10,269 nucleotides of DNA from contig JAFOIS010000297.1 in NCBI GenBank assembly GCA_017420605.1, positions 1 through 10,269 of the forward strand, in the 5' to 3' direction. Each line of letters begins with the position of its first letter. Positions within the stretch are counted from its first letter, which is position 1. The notes below the pieces were generated by a model that saw nothing but the letters and a program-made list of their open reading frames with translations, did not search any database and was not told where the DNA came from. Origin of the DNA: Lachnospiraceae bacterium (GTDB lineage Bacteria > Bacillota > Clostridia > Lachnospirales > Lachnospiraceae). Of the stretch, positions 1 to 10,269 are shown piece by piece. A program made the translations under genes and the position numbers.

Positions 1-14
1 ATAACAGACTGACG

Positions 15-644
15 ATGGATCCTTCGGGATTTGTGCTCCTCTCCGAGCATATCCCGCATATCATACAGGAGATCCGGTATTATTCCACCTATAACTTCAT
101 CGGCGAGCGGATCGACGGTTATGAGGAACCCTGCGCGCTCCTGACAAAAGAGGCCGCGCGGGCGCTGAAAGCCGTCAGCAGCGAAATGATCGTTCAGGGG
201 TATCGCCTGAAGGTATTCGACGCGTACCGGCCGGTCTGCGCAGTGAAACACTTTGTGCTCTGGGGCATCGAAGACCAGGATATCCGCATGAAGCCGTATT
301 TCTATCCGGAACTGGAAAAACAGGCGCTGTTCGCGGAAGGGTATATCGCGAAGCGGTCGAGCCATAGCCGCGGGAGCGCGGTCGACCTTACCCTCCTTGA
401 CATGAGAACGGGAAAAGAACTGGATATGGGCAGCCCGTTCGACCTGTTCAGCCCGCTTTCCCATCCGGACTGCCGGACGATCACGGAAGAACAGTATGAG
501 AACCGCATGATCCTGCAGAGGGCCATGGTCAGGAACGGATTTCAGCCGCTACCCTGCGAGTGGTGGCATTTTTCCCTGAAGAGGGAGCCGTATCCGGATA
601 CATATTTTGAATTCCCTGTCTCGTCGGCTTATCTGAGACGATGA
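15..644 (+). CDS. D-alanyl-D-alanine dipeptidase, VanX/DdpX family (peptidase M15D); start uncertain
   Basis: Zinc dipeptidase predicted to cleave D-Ala-D-Ala, the peptidoglycan precursor dipeptide. The 209 residues match VanX (about 202 aa) nearly end to end. Visible active-site features are the substrate-binding arginine in DAYRP (R72), the zinc ligands in SSHSRGSAVD (H117 and D124), and the catalytic glutamate and third zinc ligand in EWWH (E182 and H185). No signal peptide is present from this Met, so the protein would be cytoplasmic like VanX. The start aligns with the VanX N-terminus, but the 14 bases before it hold no ribosome binding site and the frame is open to the window edge, so a longer form, possibly exported, cannot be excluded. 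No vanH, ligase or vanRS gene is in view. A role in D-Ala-D-Ala recycling or wall turnover is more likely than glycopeptide resistance. Family call is firm; cellular role is inferred. Confidence 0.9.
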   Translation: MDPSGFVLLSEHIPHIIQEIRYYSTYNFIGERIDGYEEPCALLTKEAARALKAVSSEMIVQGYRLKVFDAYRPVCAVKHFVLWGIEDQDIRMKPYFYPELEKQALFAEGYIAKRSSHSRGSAVDLTLLDMRTGKELDMGSPFDLFSPLSHPDCRTITEEQYENRMILQRAMVRNGFQPLPCEWWHFSLKREPYPDTYFEFPVSSAYLRR

Positions 645-650
645 TCGGAG

Positions 651-676
651 CAACAATAAGTTATTATAGGTAGTAA
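651..676 (+). promoter_or_regulatory. AT-rich intergenic island with short dyad; possible promoter region for the STAS operon
   Basis: The 56-base gap between the dipeptidase and the first STAS gene is clearly more AT-rich than its surroundings. It holds a perfect 5+5 dyad, AATAA-G-TTATT, at 655-665. A TATTAT hexamer at 662-667 resembles a sigma-A -10 box, but no acceptable -35 hexamer lies 16-18 bases upstream. This is the most plausible place for a promoter separating the dipeptidase from the downstream genes. The evidence is compositional only. Confidence 0.2.
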
Positions 677-688
677 CAGAAGAAGCAC

Positions 689-694
689 AGGAGG
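689..694 (+). promoter_or_regulatory. Ribosome binding site AGGAGG of the stand-alone STAS gene
   Basis: A perfect AGGAGG lies six bases before the ATG at 701. This fixes the start of the small STAS gene and suggests strong translation, as expected for an antagonist that must titrate a kinase. Confidence 0.85.
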
Positions 695-700
695 TAGATC

Positions 701-1000
701 ATGCTGAGTATCGAAAAAAAGATCGAAGACGCAAAGGCATCCGTGTCTCTTGCAGGACGTCTCGATACGGTCTCCGCGCCGGAACTGGAAGAAGTGCTTT
801 CCAAGCTGATCCCGGGTATCGGGGAACTGACTCTGGATCTGAAAGACCTGGATTATATATCCTCGGCGGGACTCAGGGTGCTGCTTTCGGTCCATAAGAT
901 CATGGACAGACAGGGCATCCTCAAGGTGGCGAATGCCGGAGAGACGATCATGGAAATCTTTGAGGTGACGGGCTTTTCGGAGATCCTGAACCTGGTGTAA
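701..1000 (+). CDS. Anti-anti-sigma factor, single STAS domain (SpoIIAA/RsbV-like)
   Basis: A 99-residue protein that is a STAS domain throughout, close to the usual SpoIIAA/RsbV length. In this family the unphosphorylated protein binds an RsbW/SpoIIAB-type kinase and frees its target; phosphorylation of one serine switches it off. The signature is DLDYISSAGLRVLL (residues 49-62). By alignment with SpoIIAA DSSG (Ser58), the predicted phosphoacceptor is Ser55. The C-terminal MEIFEVTGFSEIL (84-96) matches the final helix region of the fold. The next gene carries a second, clearly related STAS domain plus an RsbW-like ATPase, and a PP2C phosphatase is encoded further down, so kinase and phosphatase partners are both local. 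It is probably cytoplasmic and soluble. The fold is certain; which kinase and phosphatase act on it is inferred from gene order. Confidence 0.93.
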   Translation: MLSIEKKIEDAKASVSLAGRLDTVSAPELEEVLSKLIPGIGELTLDLKDLDYISSAGLRVLLSVHKIMDRQGILKVANAGETIMEIFEVTGFSEILNLV

Positions 1001-1015
1001 AGTCGCCTTTAAAAT

Positions 1016-1022
1016 AAGGAGG
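1016..1022 (+). promoter_or_regulatory. Ribosome binding site AAGGAGG of the STAS-kinase-HATPase gene
   Basis: AAGGAGG lies six bases before the ATG at 1029, in the 28-base gap after the small STAS gene. It supports this start, which leaves a complete STAS domain at the N-terminus. Confidence 0.85.
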
Positions 1023-1028
1023 AAAACC

Positions 1029-2606
1029 ATGCCGGAAATGAATGCGGCGCCTGTAACGATCCTGCTTGCCGGACGGATCGACTCGGGCAATGCCTCGCAG
1101 GTCGAGGCGGAGGTCCGGAATCAGCTGGCCGGAAAGGGAAAGATACCGGTCGTTCTCGACGCGTCTGATCTTTCTTATATATCCAGCGCCGGCCTTCGGA
1201 TCATTCTGAGGATACGCAAGGAGTATCCGCGTCTTACGATCACGAACGTCAGCTCCGAGGTCTATGAGATCCTCGAGATGACCGGCTTTACGGAAATGAT
1301 GCCGGTCGAAAAAGCGTACCGCGTAGTATCCGTGGAAGGCTGCGAGGAGATCGGACGCGGCGCGAACGGCACGATCTACCGGATCGATAAAGATAACGTC
1401 GTCAAGGTCTACAACAATGCCGACGCGCTCGAAGACATCCAGCATGAGCGTGAAGTGGCAAAACTTGCGCTGATCCTCGGGATCCCGACCGCGATCTCCT
1501 ATGACGTCGTGCGGGTCGGGGACAGCTACGGTTCTGTCTTTGAACTGCTGAACGCCAGGTCATTTTCGAAGATCCTCTCGGAGGAACCGGAGAAGATGGA
1601 CTGGTGTGTCCGCGAGTATGTGGAGATGCTGAAAAAGATCCACGGAACGCTCGTTCCGCCCGGAAAACTCCCGGACATGAAAGACACGGTGCTCGGCTGG
1701 GCGCGCTTCATGCAGGATCATCTTCCGGAGGAGGCAGGGAAAAAACTGCTGTCCCTGGTCGAAGAAGTGCCGCATGACGACCACATGATCCACGGGGATT
1801 ATCATACGAAGAATCTGGAACTGACGGGCGACGAAGTCCTCCTGATCGATATGGATACGCTCGCGGTCGGGCACCCGATTTTTGAGCTGGCCAGCATGTT
1901 CAATTCGTTCGTCGGGTATTCGGAATTCGATCATTCGGTCATCAAAAAGTTCCAGGGCTTTGACTTCGAGACCGGAAAGACGTTCTGGCACAAGTCCCTT
2001 GCCGCCTATCTCGGAACGAACTGCGCAACGAAGATCCGGGAGGTGGAAGATAAGGCGAGGATCATCGGATACACGCGTATGATCCGCAGGGCGATCCGCC
2101 GGAAGGGGCTCGAGACGGAGGAGGGGAGAGCAGAGATCGGCTTCTGGAAAGAAAGGCTGCTCGCGCTGCTGGAGCATACGGATACGCTCCTGTTCCGCAC
2201 CGATGAGATGGAGATCGAAGCGGAAAACGATAATCTGTCCGAAGTACAGAGCTTTGTGGAAGAACGGCTTTCGGAGACGACCTGTCCGGCAAGGGCAAAA
2301 ATGCAGATCGGCCTTGCCGTCGAGGAGATCTTCGTGAATATCGCAAGTTATGCGTACGCGCCGGGAAAAGGCAAGGCGCTCGTGCGCGTCGAAGTGTCGG
2401 GAACGCCGGTCCGGGTGACCGTGACGTTCGTTGACGGCGGGGTCCCGTACGATCCGCTTGCCAAAGACGACCCGGACGTGACCCTTTCCGCCGCAGAGCG
2501 CGAGATCGGCGGTCTCGGGATCTTCCTGACGCGTCAGGTCATGGACGACGTCGCCTATGAGTATAAAGACGGGAAGAACATTCTGACGCTGAAAAAGAAC
2601 CTGTGA
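1029..2606 (+). CDS. Three-domain partner-switching fusion: STAS + APH-like kinase + RsbW-type HATPase
   Basis: A 525-residue cytoplasmic protein with three domains. Residues 1-95 are a STAS domain with YISSAGLRIIL (predicted phospho-Ser53). Residues about 103-385 are an aminoglycoside-phosphotransferase/protein-kinase-like fold: glycine loop GRGANGTIYRI (109-119), candidate ATP lysine K126 in VVKVY, catalytic HGDYHTKN (255-262, Asp257 and Asn262), and metal-binding LLIDMDT (271-277). Residues about 390-525 are an RsbW-like HATPase_c_2 domain: N box EEIFVNIASYAY (Glu433, Asn437), G1 box VDGGVPYDPL, and G2 box IGGLGIFL (493-500). All key residues look intact in each domain. The HATPase is the likely serine kinase for its own STAS domain and for the STAS protein encoded just upstream. 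The substrate of the middle kinase-like domain is unknown; similar APH-fold proteins exist as uncharacterised paralogous families. There is no frameshift or low-complexity junction, so the fusion looks genuine. Confidence 0.9.
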   Translation: MPEMNAAPVTILLAGRIDSGNASQVEAEVRNQLAGKGKIPVVLDASDLSYISSAGLRIILRIRKEYPRLTITNVSSEVYEILEMTGFTEMMPVEKAYRVVSVEGCEEIGRGANGTIYRIDKDNVVKVYNNADALEDIQHEREVAKLALILGIPTAISYDVVRVGDSYGSVFELLNARSFSKILSEEPEKMDWCVREYVEMLKKIHGTLVPPGKLPDMKDTVLGWARFMQDHLPEEAGKKLLSLVEEVPHDDHMIHGDYHTKNLELTGDEVLLIDMDTLAVGHPIFELASMFNSFVGYSEFDHSVIKKFQGFDFETGKTFWHKSLAAYLGTNCATKIREVEDKARIIGYTRMIRRAIRRKGLETEEGRAEIGFWKERLLALLEHTDTLLFRTDEMEIEAENDNLSEVQSFVEERLSETTCPARAKMQIGLAVEEIFVNIASYAYAPGKGKALVRVEVSGTPVRVTVTFVDGGVPYDPLAKDDPDVTLSAAEREIGGLGIFLTRQVMDDVAYEYKDGKNILTLKKNL

Positions 2607-2668
2607 CGCCAAGGCGAAGATCCCCGGCCCGGACGGAAAGCCGGACAGATGCATAAGGTGCGGCTGAG

Positions 2669-3856
2669 ATGAAGCTTGCGGTGATGCTCCTTATCTATAC
2701 GGCGGTGATGCTGCTCGCCCTCCTTCTTCTGGACGGGCTTATGCGCCGTGCTTTCCCGCGGAAAGGGAAACGGATACGGATCGCGGCCTGCATAGTCTGC
2801 GCGGTCCTTCTGCTGTTTTCGCCTGCCGGCGCACTCGTGTCCGACGGGCCGCTGTGCTGGTTTTTCCAGCGTTGGGGAAACGTTTTTACCGGCTTCATGC
2901 TGTATTTTTTCGGGCCGCTGCTGCTCATCCGGCTTCCGGCAGTTCCCGTGCGGTTAGCCGCGCATCGCCTCCGCAGCCGGAAGGACGGAGAGCGTCCGGG
3001 ACTGTCCCGGGGGCTGCTTGTATGTCTACTGCTTCTTACCGTCATCGTCAATATTTTTGGCATGCATGCGGCGCAGGACGTCCGGGTGACCCGCTATGAG
3101 ATCCCGAAAGAGACGCTTTCGCAGGATGAGCCCCTCCGGATCGTCCTTGTCGCGGATCTGCATATCGGCGTCAATTCTTCACCGTCCCTTATGCGGAAGA
3201 TGACGGAACGTATCAACGGGCAGGATGCGGATCTTGTAGTCGTGGCGGGCGACCTCATCACAAGCTCCTTCGGGGCGGTGCGGAATACGGACGCCTATGC
3301 CGACGCCCTCCGGGGCATCCGCTCGAAATACGGCGTTTACGCGGTATACGGCAATCACGACGTGGATGAGCCTCTTCTCGGAGGGTTTACGTTTGCGGGC
3401 GGCAGAGCGGTCCGGAATCCGGGTCTCGTCCGGTTTGTTTCCGGCCTCGGCTGGCATATGCTGGAAGATGAGACCGTCCGCCTTCCGGAACTTTCGGGAC
3501 TGGTCATCGCCGGACGCAGGGATAAGTCGCGTCCGGGAGACGGTATCGATAAGCGGAAGGATCTTGCGGAGCTCCTTGGAGGGACGGATCCGTCCGCACC
3601 GGTCCTCCTTCTGCAGCATGAACCGGAGGACCTGGATCTTCTCGGCGGCTGCGGTGTAGGGCTCTCCTTAAGCGGCCATACCCATGACGGTCAGATCTTT
3701 CCCGGGAATCTGATCACCCGGATGCTGAGTCCCCAGTCCTACGGCCTGCGGCAATGGAACGGGGCCTATGCGGCCGTCACGTCCGGCGTCGGCTATTACG
3801 GCCCGCCGATCCGGGTCGGTACGATCAGCGAGATCGCGGTGATCGATCTTGTATGA
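2669..3856 (+). CDS. Membrane-anchored calcineurin-like metallophosphoesterase (YkuE/YaeI-like)
   Basis: A 395-residue protein with four predicted N-terminal membrane helices (about 4-21, 37-57, 70-95 and 113-133) followed by a dimetal phosphoesterase domain (about 155-395). The metal-site motifs are complete and in order: ADLH (Asp163, His165), AGDLI (Asp195), GNHD (Asn229, His230), LQHEP (His317) and SGHTHDGQ (His337, His339). The late GHTHDGQ and SYGLRQW regions resemble the YkuE/YaeI branch. Basic loops at 25-37 and 96-115 fall on one side of the membrane. By the positive-inside rule this places the catalytic domain outside the cell. Homologues act on lipid-linked or cell-surface phosphoesters, but the substrate here is unknown. 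AAGGTG stands eight bases before the ATG. The gene sits 62 bases after the fusion gene, consistent with one operon. Confidence 0.92.
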   Translation: MKLAVMLLIYTAVMLLALLLLDGLMRRAFPRKGKRIRIAACIVCAVLLLFSPAGALVSDGPLCWFFQRWGNVFTGFMLYFFGPLLLIRLPAVPVRLAAHRLRSRKDGERPGLSRGLLVCLLLLTVIVNIFGMHAAQDVRVTRYEIPKETLSQDEPLRIVLVADLHIGVNSSPSLMRKMTERINGQDADLVVVAGDLITSSFGAVRNTDAYADALRGIRSKYGVYAVYGNHDVDEPLLGGFTFAGGRAVRNPGLVRFVSGLGWHMLEDETVRLPELSGLVIAGRRDKSRPGDGIDKRKDLAELLGGTDPSAPVLLLQHEPEDLDLLGGCGVGLSLSGHTHDGQIFPGNLITRMLSPQSYGLRQWNGAYAAVTSGVGYYGPPIRVGTISEIAVIDLV

Positions 3857-3909
3857 ACGGACAGGTTTTTGCTGTTGCAGATGATGATGCTTATAGATGA
3901 GGGACCAGG

Positions 3910-5748
3910 ATGGAAAACAAAGCGATAAGTGAGGAGAAGACGAGGCGCCGGGAATGGAAGAAGGCGGCGCGCGACGTTGTCCGCACCCATTACCTGATGC
4001 TTGTGGCGCTGTGTCTGGCTGCTGTTTTCTTTGGCACCGAGTTTGGCTACGTGAAGAGCCACAGTGTGAATCTGTACTATGCCGTGACCGGGCAGACTGC
4101 CCAGATCGGCGGCGATATCCTGAAGATCAATACCAATAACGTGCGTCAGAAGGTCCTGCAGGATCTCATCGACGACAATATCAAGGCCGGCAAGGTCCGG
4201 GCGGCCCGGCAGCTTCTGGAGTACCGGAACGAAAAACTGACGAACTCGACCGTAAGCCGCCGCAGCGGCATCTTTGCGGCAGCCGCCAACGAGATCTCCT
4301 CCGGCCAGCTTTATGTGACGCTTTTCAACGGACTGCATTCCATCATACACTCCCGGCGGATCTCGACCGCCATCGTAGTGGCCGGGGACCTGCTTCTTGC
4401 GATCGCGGTCTGGATCTTCCTGAAAAATGTATATCAGACACTGCTCCGGAGGGTCCTCCTGGAGGCGAGGGTATATCCGGAGGTGCCGGTCACGCATCTT
4501 CTGCACCTGAAACTGGCCGGCCGGTGGTTCCGTGCCTCCATGACTCTGCTGCTGCGCAGCATCATGGAGTTCCTCTGGTGGCTGACGATCGCGGGCGGCT
4601 TTATTTACCATTATGCATATTTCCTGGTCCCGTATATCGTTGCGGAGAATCCGGACATACGGCCGAAGGAAGCGCTTGCCCTGTCGAAACGCATGATGGA
4701 CGGGCATAAATGGGAGTGTTTCAAACTGGAGCTCTCCTTCCTGGGCTGGTTTTTCCTTGGATTCCTTACGTTCGGGTTCGCGGACGTCTTCTGGGCCGTT
4801 CCGTATGAAACGGCGACGATGGCAGAGTTCTATGCCGCGCGGCGCGCGCAGGCGAAGGCGGAAGGAATGCCGGGTACGGATGCGCTGAACGATACGTATC
4901 TCTATGAAAAGGCGGAGGAGGGGTTCCTCAGGCAGACGTATGCGGACGTGGAAGAGCATAAGCACTACATCGACGAGCACCGTGTGACGCTGCCGCCGGT
5001 GCGCGCGTTCTTCGCGAAGAACTTCGGGCTGTGGATCGGAAGCGGCGCGGAGAAAAAACAGTACGACGACGTGGACCTGCGCAGGCAGCAGATCGTCGAA
5101 GAACGGGCCGTGATCAAGGGAAAGATCTATCCGCTGCGGCTTGCGCCGCTGTGGAACGAAAAGAACAACAATGTGGTCCGCGAAATCCGGTATCTGCGTA
5201 CCTATACCGTCTGGTCGGTCATTCTCGCGTTTTTTGCGTTCGGTTTCGTCGGCTGGCTTTGGGAGGTCTCGCTGCATCTTTTCGGCGACGGCGTCTTCGT
5301 GAACCGGGGCGTCATGCACGGCCCGTGGCTGCCGATCTACGGCGGCGGGGTGGTCATGATCCTCGTCCTGCTTGCCAGATGGCGCAGCAAGCCGTATCTG
5401 GAAGCGATCCTCATCGTGCTGCTGTGCGGCGCGGTGGAATACACGACTTCCTTTGCGCTGGAACAGATCGCCGGCATGCGCTGGTGGGATTATACGGGAT
5501 ACTTTCTGAATCTCAACGGAAGGATCTGCGGCGAAGGACTGACGCTCTTTGCCCTCGGAGGAATGGGAGCCGTTTATCTTCTGGTGCCGGTCCTGGATTC
5601 CATATGGTCCAGGATGCGGACGAAGGTGCTGGCAGTCGTCTGCAGTATCCTTCTTGCCTGTTTTGCGGCGGACGCGGTCTATTCCGCGATCGTCCCCAAT
5701 ACGGGCGACGGCATCACCGATTATGCCGCCTATCAGGAGGCGGAGTAG
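3910..5748 (+). CDS. Polytopic membrane protein: DUF975 fused to CmpB-like 'ABC-transporter type IV' domain (PF06541)
   Basis: A 612-residue integral membrane protein with two recognisable halves. The N-terminal half (about 14-315) looks like DUF975. It opens with a basic cytoplasmic segment (REWKKAARDVVRTHY) and a first helix at 29-47, and has the family's typical stretch NPDIRPKEALALSKRMMDGH (247-266) leading into a helix pair and AVPYETATMAEFY. A charged cytoplasmic linker follows (about 310-430, including a second basic/acidic stretch at 380-400). The C-terminal half (about 435-570) matches PF06541: GWLWEV, NRGVMHGPWLPIYGGG (465-480), EYTTSFALEQ and RWWDYTGYFLNLNGRIC (524-540). A last helix is at 573-593. 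Despite the PF06541 name, no ATPase or binding protein is nearby, so transport is unproven. The SD GAGGGA lies five bases before the ATG. Domain calls are confident; function is unknown. Confidence 0.88.
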   Translation: MENKAISEEKTRRREWKKAARDVVRTHYLMLVALCLAAVFFGTEFGYVKSHSVNLYYAVTGQTAQIGGDILKINTNNVRQKVLQDLIDDNIKAGKVRAARQLLEYRNEKLTNSTVSRRSGIFAAAANEISSGQLYVTLFNGLHSIIHSRRISTAIVVAGDLLLAIAVWIFLKNVYQTLLRRVLLEARVYPEVPVTHLLHLKLAGRWFRASMTLLLRSIMEFLWWLTIAGGFIYHYAYFLVPYIVAENPDIRPKEALALSKRMMDGHKWECFKLELSFLGWFFLGFLTFGFADVFWAVPYETATMAEFYAARRAQAKAEGMPGTDALNDTYLYEKAEEGFLRQTYADVEEHKHYIDEHRVTLPPVRAFFAKNFGLWIGSGAEKKQYDDVDLRRQQIVEERAVIKGKIYPLRLAPLWNEKNNNVVREIRYLRTYTVWSVILAFFAFGFVGWLWEVSLHLFGDGVFVNRGVMHGPWLPIYGGGVVMILVLLARWRSKPYLEAILIVLLCGAVEYTTSFALEQIAGMRWWDYTGYFLNLNGRICGEGLTLFALGGMGAVYLLVPVLDSIWSRMRTKVLAVVCSILLACFAADAVYSAIVPNTGDGITDYAAYQEAE

Positions 5749-5758
5749 CAGGTAAATA

Positions 5759-8700
5759 ATGAATAAAAGAGATCATCGGAAAACAGGACGGGCGACGGAA
5801 GGCCGGACGGCGCGATGCGCCCGTCTTCTTGCCGCCATGCTGATCCTGACGGTCCTTTTTGTCACGGGGACGGGAACACAGGTATGCCGTGCCGCGGAGG
5901 GAGATACGTCCGGCATGGCGGACGGTGCGCAGGCGGCGGATCCGTTCAGCGGGGAAGCCGGCTTTTCGGCGGTGCTCTACAATAACGCGAACGGCCTGCC
6001 GACGTCGGAGGCTAACGCCATAGCCGAGACAGCAGACGGTTTTTTGTGGATCGGCAGCTACGGCGGCCTCACCCGCTACGACGGCAACAGCTTCGTTCCG
6101 GTCGAAGGCGCCGGCATCACCGGTGTGAACTGTCTGTGCGCGGACTCTAAGGGGCGGCTGTGGATCGGCACGAACGACAGCGGCATTTTCCTTATGGAAA
6201 AAGGGCAGCTGCGCCATTTTGGCACGGAAGACGGCCTTCGGTCCAGCTCGGTCCGCGCTGTAGTCGAAGGGCCGGACGGAACGGTCTATGCGGCAACGAC
6301 GAAAGGGATCGTCTTATTCGATGAGGAACTTTCTGTCTCCGTGCAGCAGGACGCGCGGATCGGGGACGCATATATCGGGGACCTCCGCGCCGGCGCGGAC
6401 GGCCTGATCTACGGACTTACGAACAGCGGAGATCTCTTCACCCTGAAGGACGGAAAGGTAGAACATTATCTCGATCACGGCAACAGCCGTCTCGGGGCTT
6501 TGAGCGCTGCGGTGCCTGATTCGGAAAATCCCGGGATGCTCTTTGTCGAAACGGAAGACAGCCTTTCTCTTTACGGGAAATTTGACGGCGGCTTCGGCAC
6601 GATGGAGATCCTGGATACCGGTTCCCTGACCCAGATCCAGGAATTCCGCCGCATCGGCGGTATGATCTGGATCTGCGGCAGAAACGGGATCGGTGTGATC
6701 ACGGAGGACGGCTTTTACGCACTCGAAGACTTTCCCATGAACAATTCCGTCTGTCAGGTGACGACGGATTATGAAGGCAACCTCTGGTTTGCGTCCACAC
6801 GGCAGGGGGTCATGAAGATCGTACCGAACCGGTTCACGGACCTCTTCGAACGCCATGGCCTTGTAAAAACGGTCGTCAACTCCACCTGCGTGTATGACGG
6901 ACTGCTTTTTATCGGTACGGACAGCGGCCTCACGGTCCTCGGCCGGGACGGCGCTTTGTCGGCTCTTCCGCTTTCGAAGGCGAAGAGCGCCTCCGGCTAT
7001 CATCTCGGCACGACCGACCTCCTGCAGTATCTTGACGGCTGCCGTATCCGCTCGATCATCCGTGACAGCCGCGGGCGGCTTTGGATCTCCACCTGGAGAA
7101 ACAAAGGGCTGCTCCGTTACGACGATGGCGAGCTTCTGGCGTTTTCGACCGGCGACGGCCTGTATTCGGATCATATACGGAGCGTCGTTGAGCGGGAAGA
7201 CGGCTCTTATCTCGTTGCCTGTACCGGCGGCGTCAATATCATCGAAGAAGACCGGGTCGTCGCCGGTTACGGGGAAGCCGACGGGATCGGCAATACCGAG
7301 ATCCTCACCGTTGCGGAAGGAGAAGCGGGCGATATCCTTGCCGGCTCCGACGGAGGCGGTATCTATGTGATCGGCGGACAGGGTGTCCGCAGGATCGGCA
7401 TGGAAGACGGTCTCACTTCGGAGGCGGTCATGCGGATCAAGGCGGACCGGAAGAGAGGAATCTACTGGGTCGTCACGGGAAGCTCGCTCGCATATCTGTC
7501 CTCCGATTATACGGTCACGACGCTGGATCATTTTCCGTATTTCAATAATTTCGACCTTTATGAGAACTCGAGAGGGGAAATGTGGATCCTGAGCGGCAAC
7601 GGGGTCTACATCTCGACGGTGGACGACCTTCTGGCCAACGAAGGAACACAGCCTGCCCATTTCGGCATCGGAGACGGGCTGCCGTGCATCCCGACGGCCA
7701 ATTCCTACAGCGAACTGACACAGGAAGGCAATCTCTATATCGCCGGCACGGAAGGCGTCTCGAAGATAAACGTCGATGAGCCGCTGGAGGGCGTTAGCGG
7801 GATCCGCATTGCGATCCCCTATCTGGAAGCGGACGGAACGCGGATCTATGCCGATGAAAGCGGTGTTTTCCATGTGGGGTCCCGCGTGCGGAAACTGACC
7901 GTTCACGGGTTTGCGTTCAATTTTTCGCTGACTGACCCGGTCGTGTCCTATCAGCTGGAGGGGTTTGATCCGGAGAGCATTTCTGTCCGTCGGAGCGAGT
8001 TCGCACCGGTGGTATATACGAACCTCCGGGGCGGCGATTACCGTTTTGTACTGCGGCTCATAGACCCGCTCAACCGTGAAAGCAGCTCCATGTCCGTGGA
8101 GATCGTCAAAGCCAGGGCGATCACCGAACAGGGCTGGTTCTACGCGGCGCTCCTTTTTGCCGCGGCGCTGGCGATCCATTTCTCCGTGATGATCCATGTC
8201 CGGAAAAAGATGCGCCTTCTGGAGGAAAAACACCAGGAGGAAAAAGAGAAGGAACGCATCAGTACGGAACTGGGCATGGCAAACCGGATCCAGACAAGTA
8301 CGCTGCCGCATGTTTTTCCGCCTTTCCCGGACCGTACGGAATTCGATATTTATGCCGCCATGCAGCCGGCAAGAGAAGTGGGCGGCGATTTTTATGATTT
8401 CTACATGATCGACGACGATCATCTGTGCCTCGTCATAGCGGACGTGAGCGGCAAAGGCATTCCTGCTGCGCTCTTTATGATGATCTCCAGAGCGGTCCTG
8501 CAAAGCTGCGCGATACCGGGCCGTACGGCCGGAGAGGCCCTCGAAAAGATGAACGATGCCATCTGCGCGAGAAACCAGGTGGATATGTTCGTTACGGTCT
8601 GGATCGGGATCCTGGAGATCAGCACGGGACGGCTTGACGCCGCCAATGCCGGACACGAATATCCGGCCGTGATGCACGACGGAAAGTTTGAACTTCTTAA

Positions 8701-8998
8701 GGATAAGCACGGCTTCGTGATCGGCGGCATGGAGGGCATGCGGTACAGGGATTATGAGATCGTGCTGAAGCCGGGGGACAGGATCTTTGTGTATACGGAC
8801 GGCGTTCCGGAAGCGACGGACGGAGAAGGCGCGATGTTCGGAACGGAGAGGATGCTGGACGCGCTCAATGAAGATGCGTGCGCGGGAACGGAAAAGATCC
8901 TCGATAACGTCCGGAAAGCCGTGGATGTCTTTGTCGGCGGGGCGGAGCAGTTCGACGATCTGACGATGATGTGTCTCGAATACAGGGGGAAGGTATGA
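5759..8998 (+). CDS. Transmembrane sensor PP2C phosphatase: propeller + Y_Y_Y ectodomain, SpoIIE/RsbU-type catalytic domain
   Basis: A 1079-residue type I membrane protein. A long basic signal peptide (hydrophobic core about 23-40, cleavage near 45) is followed by about 13 propeller repeats (about 68-670) of the two-component-regulator type, such as GFLWIGSYGGLTRYDG (94-109), GRLWIGTNDSGIF and GRLWISTWRNKGLLRYDDG. This suggests two seven-bladed propellers. A Y_Y_Y domain follows (about 708-785, with YQLEGFDP and VVYTNLRGGDYRF), then one membrane helix (793-813), a charged coiled coil (815-845) and a PP2C domain (about 850-1075). Expected metal aspartates are present in VGGDFYDF (D877), IADVSGKGIPAAL (D895), VYTDGVPEA (D1014) and QFDDLTM (D1066/D1067). 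It should sense an outside ligand and dephosphorylate STAS proteins inside; the two STAS domains encoded upstream are the obvious candidates. An in-frame TAA at 5753 fixes ATG 5759 as the first start. Its own SD is weak (AGG six bases away); the AGGAGG at 5735 is too far. Confidence 0.94.
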   Translation: MNKRDHRKTGRATEGRTARCARLLAAMLILTVLFVTGTGTQVCRAAEGDTSGMADGAQAADPFSGEAGFSAVLYNNANGLPTSEANAIAETADGFLWIGSYGGLTRYDGNSFVPVEGAGITGVNCLCADSKGRLWIGTNDSGIFLMEKGQLRHFGTEDGLRSSSVRAVVEGPDGTVYAATTKGIVLFDEELSVSVQQDARIGDAYIGDLRAGADGLIYGLTNSGDLFTLKDGKVEHYLDHGNSRLGALSAAVPDSENPGMLFVETEDSLSLYGKFDGGFGTMEILDTGSLTQIQEFRRIGGMIWICGRNGIGVITEDGFYALEDFPMNNSVCQVTTDYEGNLWFASTRQGVMKIVPNRFTDLFERHGLVKTVVNSTCVYDGLLFIGTDSGLTVLGRDGALSALPLSKAKSASGYHLGTTDLLQYLDGCRIRSIIRDSRGRLWISTWRNKGLLRYDDGELLAFSTGDGLYSDHIRSVVEREDGSYLVACTGGVNIIEEDRVVAGYGEADGIGNTEILTVAEGEAGDILAGSDGGGIYVIGGQGVRRIGMEDGLTSEAVMRIKADRKRGIYWVVTGSSLAYLSSDYTVTTLDHFPYFNNFDLYENSRGEMWILSGNGVYISTVDDLLANEGTQPAHFGIGDGLPCIPTANSYSELTQEGNLYIAGTEGVSKINVDEPLEGVSGIRIAIPYLEADGTRIYADESGVFHVGSRVRKLTVHGFAFNFSLTDPVVSYQLEGFDPESISVRRSEFAPVVYTNLRGGDYRFVLRLIDPLNRESSSMSVEIVKARAITEQGWFYAALLFAAALAIHFSVMIHVRKKMRLLEEKHQEEKEKERISTELGMANRIQTSTLPHVFPPFPDRTEFDIYAAMQPAREVGGDFYDFYMIDDDHLCLVIADVSGKGIPAALFMMISRAVLQSCAIPGRTAGEALEKMNDAICARNQVDMFVTVWIGILEISTGRLDAANAGHEYPAVMHDGKFELLKDKHGFVIGGMEGMRYRDYEIVLKPGDRIFVYTDGVPEATDGEGAMFGTERMLDALNEDACAGTEKILDNVRKAVDVFVGGAEQFDDLTMMCLEYRGKV
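8985..8997 (+). promoter_or_regulatory. Ribosome binding site and ATGA start/stop overlap that fix the PHP gene start
   Basis: GGGGGAAGG (8985-8993) precedes ATG 8995, whose bases overlap the TGA stop of the sensor phosphatase (8996-8998). The frame has an earlier ATG at 8971, but that would add eight residues ahead of the family's conserved MKIDLHLHT beginning and has no good SD. The overlap points to translational coupling. Confidence 0.8.
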
Positions 8999-9864
8999 AA
9001 ATCGATCTGCATCTGCATACCTGCATCTCCGACGGCACCGATACGCCGGAAGAGATCCTTGCGCATGTCCGGGAAGCGGGAATGCAGCTTTTTTCGGTGA
9101 CGGATCACGACGCGGTGCGTGCCGGGATAAAGATGCGGGCGCTGCGGAAGGAGGGAGATCCCGCGTTTCTTTGCGGCGCGGAATTCTCCTGTAAAGATGA
9201 AGAAGGCAAATATCACATACTGGGATACGGCTTCGATCCGGAAGGGAAGGCGATCCGCCGTCTGGTGGAGGCGGGGCATTCGCTGCGGATGAAAAAAGTC
9301 CGGGCCCGTCTTGATTTCCTCCGGACGGAATTCGGCTTTACCTTCCCCAAGGAGGAGATCGAAGGGCTTCTTTCGCTGGATAATCCGGGAAAGCCGCATA
9401 TCGGAAATATGATGGTGCGGTACGGCTATGCCGCGACAAAGGATGAGGCGATCCGCGATTTTATCAACCGGGTCCATTTCCGGAGCGAATACCTGCGGCC
9501 GGAGCAGGCGATCGAAGGGATCCTTGACGGCGGCGGCATTCCGGTCCTTGCGCATCCCGCTTACGGCAGCGGCGATCAGCTGATCCTCGGCAGTGAACTT
9601 ATGGAAAGATTCCGGAAACTGACGGCCTTCGGCCTTCAGGGCGCGGAGGCGTATTATTCGGGGTTTACGCGCAAGATCCGGGAACAGGTACTGTCCTGCG
9701 CGGAGGAGCTGGGTCTTTACGTCACGGCCGGGAGCGATTATCACGGCTCGAACAAACTGGTCGTGCTCGGGGACACCGGGCTTTCGGACACGGCCGAAGG
9801 GGCGGAAGGTCTTCAGCGTTTTCTTGGCGAGATACGGTCGAGGGACGGATATTTCGGTGAATGA
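8995..9864 (+). CDS. PHP-domain metal-dependent phosphoesterase (TrpH/YciV-like)
   Basis: A 289-residue soluble protein, close to the usual length for the TrpH/YciV branch of the PHP superfamily. Characterised members include 3',5'-nucleoside bisphosphate phosphatases and the RNase AM exonuclease of E. coli. The metal-site motifs are visible in order: DLHLHT (His6, His8), SDGTDTPEE (Asp13), VTDHD (Asp37, His38), GAEFSC (Glu63), YHILGYG (His74), KPHIGNMMV (His135), VLAHPAYG (His187) and AGSDYHGSN (Asp248, His250). The IGNMMVRYGYAATKDEA region is the insertion typical of this subfamily. There is no signal peptide or membrane helix, so it is cytoplasmic. It overlaps the sensor phosphatase gene by ATGA, so it is co-transcribed and probably translationally coupled. 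A direct role in the phosphatase pathway is not shown; a nucleotide or RNA turnover role is what the family suggests. Confidence 0.92.
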   Translation: MKIDLHLHTCISDGTDTPEEILAHVREAGMQLFSVTDHDAVRAGIKMRALRKEGDPAFLCGAEFSCKDEEGKYHILGYGFDPEGKAIRRLVEAGHSLRMKKVRARLDFLRTEFGFTFPKEEIEGLLSLDNPGKPHIGNMMVRYGYAATKDEAIRDFINRVHFRSEYLRPEQAIEGILDGGGIPVLAHPAYGSGDQLILGSELMERFRKLTAFGLQGAEAYYSGFTRKIREQVLSCAEELGLYVTAGSDYHGSNKLVVLGDTGLSDTAEGAEGLQRFLGEIRSRDGYFGE

Positions 9865-9908
9865 AGATGCCGGACGCGGAAGCGGACCGGCCCATGCGGG
9901 GGATGGAC

Positions 9909-10269
9909 ATGAAGTTTGATACCAGAGAAAAAAAACCGGCTTTGTGGGGTCTTCTGATCCTGACGTGCGGCGCGGCGTTCCTTTGTGCCGCCGTACTTCG
10001 TTTCGTCGGGGAAAAAGCCGCCATTTCCTGCGCGATGATCGCCGACGTCTTTCTGCTCTGTGCGGCCGTCATGCTCGTACGGGCATTTTTCCGGCAGATC
10101 GAGTATAACCTCTATTCGTACAATACGATCTACTACATGGGGTTCGCTCTGTTCCTTTTCGCCGTTTTCGTAAGCTGCGTGCTCCTGACGGCGGAGATGA
10201 TCCGGCATCCGGACGTATATACGGCCGTTTACATCGTGCATACGCTCGTCGGCTCCGCAAAGAACTATA
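9909..10269 (+). CDS. Hypothetical membrane protein, 5' part only (runs off the right edge)
   Basis: An open frame continues without a stop to the window end, giving about 120 residues from ATG 9909. Three or four hydrophobic segments are visible: residues about 12-30 (LWGLLILTCGAAFLCAAVL), 37-58 and 76-96, with a fourth possible near the end. Between them is a polar, tyrosine-rich loop, RQIEYNLYSYNTIYYMGF (62-79). The first stop upstream in frame is TGA 9858, so starts at 9861 (ATGA overlap with the PHP gene), 9867 (GGTGA six bases before) or 9903 are also possible. ATG 9909 was chosen because GGGGGA stands five bases before it and the product then begins with a short charged tail before the first helix. 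The loop faintly recalls N-terminal membrane regions of YdcF-type proteins, but the diagnostic catalytic region would lie outside the window. I do not assign a function. Confidence 0.65.
   Translation, partial: MKFDTREKKPALWGLLILTCGAAFLCAAVLRFVGEKAAISCAMIADVFLLCAAVMLVRAFFRQIEYNLYSYNTIYYMGFALFLFAVFVSCVLLTAEMIRHPDVYTAVYIVHTLVGSAKNY

Follow-up and report, generated by a model that had tools for sequence, protein, structure and literature searches.

A STAS–APH–HATPase fusion gene in a Lachnospiraceae locus: a candidate partner switch with a kinase output on the same chain

The fusion gene and its locus

We analysed a stretch of 10,269 nucleotides from a Lachnospiraceae bacterium (assembly GCA_017420605.1, contig JAFOIS010000297.1, positions 1 to 10,269), called the window below. 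Our subject is a gene that joins a STAS domain, an APH-fold kinase domain and an RsbW/SpoIIAB-type HATPase domain on one chain (Table 1). A preliminary description, made from the DNA letters, had reported these three domains with intact signature residues, and the Pfam search bore this out: STAS, APH (PF01636; residues 105–295, E = 1.6e-13, 51.4 bits against a gathering score of 23.2) and HATPase_c_2 (whole-protein E = 3.1e-22) all exceeded their gathering scores. The numbering of Ser53, Asp257 and Asn437 given there is correct according to the motif positions in the translation (HGDYHTKN starts at residue 255 and EEIFVN at 432). The gene boundaries and the Shine–Dalgarno sequence were found as described. 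A frame or annotation artefact was rejected as the origin of the fusion, since the open reading frame (ORF) is unbroken and many homologues carry the same three domains.

Table 1. Coordinates of the fusion gene, its parts and the neighbouring genes in the window.
Feature	Position	Strand	Basis or detail
Three-domain gene STAS–APH–HATPase	1029..2606	+	single unbroken ORF, ATG start, 525 residues
Shine–Dalgarno AAGGAGG of the fusion gene	1016..1022	+	sequence; 6 bases 5' of the ATG at 1029
STAS domain, residues 11–95	1059..1313	+	Pfam PF01740, whole-protein E 8.4e-14
Ser53 codon of the fusion STAS	1185-1187	+	within ISSAG, which starts at residue 51
STAS–APH junction, residues 93–104	1305..1340	+	strongly conserved 12-residue stretch
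APH-fold kinase domain, about residues 105–383	1341..2177	+	Gly loop 109–114, Lys126, HGDYHTKN 255–262, IDMD 273–276
RsbW/SpoIIAB-type HATPase, residues 396–523	2214..2597	+	Asn437 codon 2337-2339
Stand-alone STAS protein, 99 residues, candidate phospho-site Ser55	701..1000	+	TIGR00377, 67.3 bits vs cut-off 53.45
AGGAGG ahead of the stand-alone STAS gene	689-694	+	sequence
DUF975 and ABC_trans_CmpB on one 612-residue membrane protein	3910-5748	+	Pfam
Reg_prop / Y_Y_Y / SpoIIE PP2C-type phosphatase	5759..8998	+	Pfam SpoIIE E 1.9e-47, Reg_prop E 2.1e-22
SpoIIE domain of this phosphatase	about 8411-8983	+	Pfam
PHP phosphoesterase	8971..9864	+	Pfam PHP E 6.1e-8; 6.4 kb 3' of the fusion gene

Counted from the start of ISSAG, Ser53 aligns with the phospho-serine of SpoIIAA and RsbV. 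The HATPase domain carries the N-box, DxGxP and GGLG motifs of a GHKL serine kinase. The AlphaFold2 model of the full chain had a mean predicted local distance difference test (pLDDT) value of 90.7 and a predicted template modelling (pTM) score of 0.80. The nearest fold neighbours of the HATPase were RsbW and SpoIIAB, in part as SigF complexes, and those of the APH domain were mostly small-molecule kinases. A sequence search of solved structures with the fusion chain yielded only STAS chains at E < 0.03; RsbW and hygromycin kinase appeared at E = 0.21.

Residues 106–327 matched the APH-like NCBIfam model TIGR02172 over positions 7–226 of 226 (E = 1.7e-31). Membership was nevertheless rejected, with 109.8 bits against a curated cut-off of 228.2. 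Among NCBIfam models of drug-modifying enzymes, only APH(6)-I appeared with E up to 0.1, and its 12 bits lie below the cut-off of 325. The domain appears to have only its fold in common with the aminoglycoside phosphotransferases.

On the plus strand, positions 701–9864 hold, in this order, the stand-alone STAS gene, the fusion gene, a metallophosphoesterase gene, the DUF975/CmpB gene, the Reg_prop–SpoIIE phosphatase gene and the PHP gene, with gaps of 28, 62, 53 and 10 bases plus one overlap. No promoter-like site was found within 600–2800, and terminator-like matches were near chance (3 found, 2.0 expected). The stand-alone STAS protein has its own Ser-Ser-Ala-Gly site, and its Ser54/Ser55 pair was present in 68/68 aligned sequences. 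On the phosphatase, Y_Y_Y fell below the Pfam cut-off, and no HATPase was found by Pfam. A diguanylate cyclase output encoded by the truncated last gene (9861-10268) was dropped as a candidate; two full-length relatives of this gene are DUF218 proteins.

Distribution, conservation and the place of the HATPase

The protein search with the fusion chain, capped at 8000 scored candidates, returned at least 7999 homologues at E up to 1e-3, and STAS, APH and HATPase_c_2 were present together in all 120 listed ones (the window's own included). Genome contigs gave 110 stretches encoding relatives, of which 80 were kept; their titles named mostly rumen and gut Clostridia. The three-domain fusion is common in these organisms, and the idea that it is rare was rejected. 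A survey of 393 genomes of the class found a match of full three-domain length in at least six (G000, G123, G268, G161, G113 and G204; G numbers denote genomes and L numbers loci) and STAS–APH with no HATPase on the chain in at least 19 others; G185, at the end of a contig, adds one such case. At most three candidates were scored per genome, and these counts are lower bounds. Of 11 records returned by the plasmid search, not one spanned 80% of the fusion chain.

The main alignment held 199 sequences (120 proteins and 79 locus ORFs). Ser52, Ser53, Lys126, His255, Asp257, Asn262, Asp274 and Asp276 were invariant in all of them, and Glu433/Asn437 were present in the 190 aligned sequences that reach the HATPase (190/190), the other nine having none. 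Because many of the 199 are 70–80% identical, the check was repeated on 27 class-survey relatives with about 30–74% identity. Lys126, His255, Asp257, Asn262 and Asp274 were retained in 27/27, and Asp276 in only 18/27. Ser52/Ser53 were kept in each of the 24 relatives with STAS at that place; the three without it are two HD_4–APH proteins and one cut gene. Over 73 rows, the mean majority-residue share was 0.94 for the STAS–APH junction (residues 93–104), 0.94 for the kinase N-lobe, 0.72 for STAS residues 9–92 and 0.72 for the APH–HATPase junction. Since the STAS–APH junction is as conserved as the N-lobe, these values suggest that STAS may be coupled rigidly to the APH kinase through this segment.

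The HATPase was differently placed among the relatives. In the locus tallies, made with home-made domain models, the 75 three-domain loci held an HATPase-free SpoIIE gene in 50 cases, a SpoIIE–HATPase gene in one (L023, by Pfam) and a separate HATPase in none. For the 31 two-domain STAS–APH loci, the corresponding figures were 1 (L073), 13 and 3. The SpoIIE–HATPase gene lay immediately 5' of STAS–APH in four two-domain loci (L128–L131), and Pfam confirmed the joined domains in L128, L129, L132, L138, L164, L170 and L074. L074, L076 and L078 shared the gene order separate HATPase, HD_4, STAS–APH and separate STAS (HATPase by Pfam in L074 and L078). In the assembly, the STAS–APH gene at L076:10042-11214 is split into two ORFs of 236 and 149 residues. 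A co-occurrence test gave 0/34 against 11/11 (Fisher p = 1e-10, ignoring kinship); it was confined to loci with at least 5 kb on each side, and L023, a counter-example, was among those omitted.

Whole-genome tallies gave a similar division. The fused HATPase was the only close member in 27/30 chosen three-domain genomes (4/4 and 23/26), with weak matches at E above 1e-5 set aside. A close HATPase was encoded elsewhere in 15/17 two-domain genomes (8/10 and 7/7 nearest), a count that stops short of the 13 more distant genomes of the class survey.

Each tree was a single quick tree with Shimodaira–Hasegawa-like approximate likelihood ratio test (SH-aLRT) support, in which the three-domain rows of L001–L080 were thinned to every fourth. 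In the STAS–APH tree, all 23 sampled three-domain chains fell into one clade of 28 rows with a support of 99. The other five members, L069, L071, L072, L073 and L075, are STAS–APH genes with no HATPase nested within the fusion clade; the remaining 28 STAS–APH rows and two HD_4–APH rows lay outside it. The simplest reading of this tree would be one gain of the HATPase followed by several losses. Of the nested genes, L069, L072 and L073 have a close HATPase at another site of their genomes, and none was found for L071 and L075. The HATPase tree grouped the fused domains with SpoIIE-attached and separate ones, apart from the MATE-attached ones (support 99). Its inner order was weak (12 starred of 63 inner branches), and the window's HATPase was not firmly placed. 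Taken together, the relatives suggest that STAS–APH is the conserved unit and the HATPase a movable part. In the preliminary description, the APH domain stood between the two switch partners; the comparison suggests the opposite view, with STAS–APH as the probable core and the HATPase as the part gained or lost.

In 112 clustered loci, we found a separate STAS in 77, SpoIIE in 68 and PHP in 54; Pfam was run on 10 of the 45 neighbour clusters. For 49 three-domain genes, the flanking sequence is available for 5 kb in each direction; within 6 kb of these genes, a separate STAS occurred in 43 cases, SpoIIE in 34, both in 33 and PHP in 37. Nearest neighbours were counted among genes of the modelled types on the same strand and within 250 bases. 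PHP was nearest downstream of 43/75 three-domain and 3/34 two-domain genes. HD_4 was nearest upstream of 7/34 two-domain genes and nearest downstream of 3/75 three-domain genes, while Y_phosphatase3 stood upstream of 5/34 and downstream of 3/34 two-domain genes and upstream of 3/75 three-domain genes. A phosphohydrolase gene often directly adjoins STAS–APH, with its type changing with the lineage, and we regard this as a lead; in the window, the PHP gene stands well apart from the fusion gene (Table 1). One of the 112 loci (L036) combined PHP with HD_4, and there the HD_4 match lay on the opposite strand, over 5 kb away from the fusion gene. No ORF of the 80 kept loci had the metallophosphoesterase or the DUF975 protein of the window as its best match (E up to 1e-6).

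Several neighbours are recorded as observations in their own right. Two genomes encode an HD_4–APH fusion, with this kinase but no STAS (L124:1399-2877 and L127:1426-2922, both on the minus strand). Y_phosphatase3-type genes lie near STAS–APH in L011, L039, L068, L072, L136, L137, L139–L141 and L158, assigned by Pfam for L068 (with SLH) and L136 and by cluster for the rest. A sodium:dicarboxylate symporter gene adjoins the fusion gene in nine loci (cluster c9; for example, L026:7295-8941), and its product has an N-terminal extension of about 146 residues with no Pfam match that looks HATPase-like by eye only.

The window's own genome (G000) is 93.9% complete. It gave two STAS domain matches, both inside the window, and three HATPase_c_2 matches above the cut-off with three more below. 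Those above were the fusion chain, the C-terminal part of a MATE protein and a protein whose neighbouring ORF looks ferredoxin-like by eye. The last is a SpoIIAB-like HATPase of 141 residues, and a SpoIIE-like phosphatase of 389 residues lies on another contig (G000:C192 and C244; L084, L091). MATE transporters with a C-terminal HATPase_c_2 were identified by Pfam in the own genome (G000:C206; L085:1489-2868, minus strand) and at L025:7206-8960, and the MATE cluster was present in 25/112 loci. It is possible that the MATE–HATPase proteins are a second output of STAS-type switches.

Proposed mechanism and alternatives

With these results in hand, we propose a sigma-free partner switch whose output would be the built-in APH-fold kinase, gated by STAS, with the fused HATPase as the kinase of the module. 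We consider the chances of this model to be evenly balanced. The HATPase domain would phosphorylate the separate STAS protein, Ser53 of its own STAS domain, or both, and the SpoIIE phosphatase, governed by its sensor domain, would reverse STAS phosphorylation. Once dephosphorylated, the separate STAS would compete for the HATPase with the STAS domain of the chain itself. The state of the latter STAS, transmitted via the near-invariant 12-residue junction to the kinase N-lobe, would set the APH activity, and the APH kinase would most likely phosphorylate a small molecule. STAS and APH stay joined while the HATPase comes and goes, which argues that the APH activity is what STAS governs. A cis arrangement does not seem to be required, given that in sister lineages the HATPase resides on a different protein. 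A further step, which we put forward tentatively and hold to be rather doubtful, is that in a switch widespread among gut Clostridia the STAS-gated APH phosphorylates a metabolite or nucleotide and the neighbouring PHP, HD_4 or Y_phosphatase3 hydrolase, depending on lineage, erases the product, with a phosphometabolite signal, rather than direct control of transcription, as the outcome.

The preliminary description had favored a switch by conformation that replaces protein association, in which the HATPase phosphorylates Ser53 of the same chain. Both partners do lie on one chain with their residues intact, and Rv1364c is described as both adding phosphate to its antagonist domain and removing it (PMC7693655). 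Same-chain phosphorylation of Ser53 may occur. Association does not appear to have been replaced by the fusion, however, because separate STAS and SpoIIE genes share the locus in the window and are both nearby in 33/49 loci. A separate STAS gene accompanies 43/49 three-domain genes within 6 kb, the phosphatase is a separate protein, some relatives have their HATPase on another protein, and five sampled genes of the fusion clade have none. A purely conformational switch is therefore unlikely. The APH domain could instead serve as the input, in that a metabolite is bound or phosphorylated by it, and the activity of STAS and the HATPase toward the separate STAS or other proteins depends on the state of the APH domain. 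RsbR, in which sensor parts are fused to STAS domains, is a precedent for such sensor–STAS fusions, and the STAS might also serve the two unlinked HATPase proteins of the own genome (one of them MATE-fused). Nevertheless, the five APH catalytic residues in 27/27 relatives are more than a pure sensor needs, and sensing is already supplied by the varied sensor parts of the SpoIIE genes (Reg_prop, dCache and 5TMR). We judge an input role distinctly improbable.

An ordinary anti-sigma module, in which a sigma factor bound by the HATPase is set free by the STAS domains and APH is incidental, would agree with the fold similarity of the HATPase to RsbW and SpoIIAB, including the SigF complexes, and with the name anti-sigma factor antagonist that some relatives bear in databases. 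It would also agree with the SigB/F/G-type sigma factors scoring above the cut-off in 20/30 three-domain genomes. The own genome argues against it. Its four Sigma70_r2 matches are RpoD, a SigH-like protein and two proteins resembling extracytoplasmic function (ECF) sigma factors, and no SigB/F/G-type sigma was found in it, the best SigBFG match being RpoD with 131.8 bits against a cut-off of 234.35. SigBFG likewise reached only 128–146 bits across G000, G268 (98% complete), G113 (96%) and G204 (97%), which are four of the six three-domain genomes with a stated completeness, all six at 90% or more; no systematic screen of neighbour genes for sigma factors was made. We regard this reading as very improbable. 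Since no cognate SigB/F/G-type sigma was found, the fusion module is described as working like a partner switch, and its membership of the anti-sigma systems was rejected for the own genome at its stated completeness.

Comparison with known systems

Among the papers listed in our searches of an open-access library, none described an APH kinase attached to a STAS domain, whether or not an HATPase was also present, and no paper naming TIGR02172 was found. The proteins of that model resemble the fusion in their APH domain, but the model covers neither STAS nor HATPase. A close likeness in chain composition is Rv1364c of M. tuberculosis. It has a sensor, a PP2C phosphatase, a GHKL kinase and an antagonist on one chain and reportedly phosphorylates the antagonist part of itself (PMC7693655); its anti-sigma and antagonist domains are placed C-terminally (PMC12143880). 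An RsbW-type kinase and an antagonist thus share a chain in both proteins. Rv1364c differs in that its sensor and PP2C are on the chain and no APH kinase is named for it, whereas the fusion has a separate phosphatase and an N-terminal STAS. No SpoIIE or PP2C match was found by Pfam on the 525-residue chain, and hence it is not a phosphatase–kinase–antagonist chain of the Rv1364c kind. The departure from separate partners, as first described, stands as a real fusion; a kinase and an antagonist on one chain were already known.

The RsbU–RsbV–RsbW and SpoIIE–SpoIIAA–SpoIIAB switches of Bacillus have the same elements, namely a SpoIIE-type phosphatase, a STAS protein with a conserved serine and an RsbW/SpoIIAB-type kinase. 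In the fusion module, by contrast, the kinase is joined to STAS–APH, and no SigB/F/G-type sigma was found in the own genome. The SiaABCD and HsbR–HsbA–HsbD systems of Pseudomonas aeruginosa also combine a phosphatase/kinase/STAS-like switch with an enzyme output, a diguanylate cyclase. Their output is a separate cyclase, while that of the fusion would be a kinase joined to STAS. SypE of Vibrio fischeri is described as a dual serine kinase/phosphatase acting on SypA, a STAS protein, and the same review lists SypA, RbaV and HmpV as partner switches with no known target (PMC8256260). SypE carries its kinase and phosphatase on one chain, as do the SpoIIE–HATPase relatives, but its STAS partner is separate and no APH domain is mentioned for it.

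Some partner switches have no known target, and the fusion presents a candidate output that is covalently joined to STAS, conserved across many genomes and assayable in vitro. Its relatives form a natural series for the cis/trans question: SpoIIE–HATPase beside STAS–APH, a separate HATPase, STAS–APH–HATPase and apparent secondary loss. Compared with the systems above, a same-chain kinase and antagonist and enzyme outputs are already known; what appears to be new is the APH domain between the antagonist and the kinase of the same chain.
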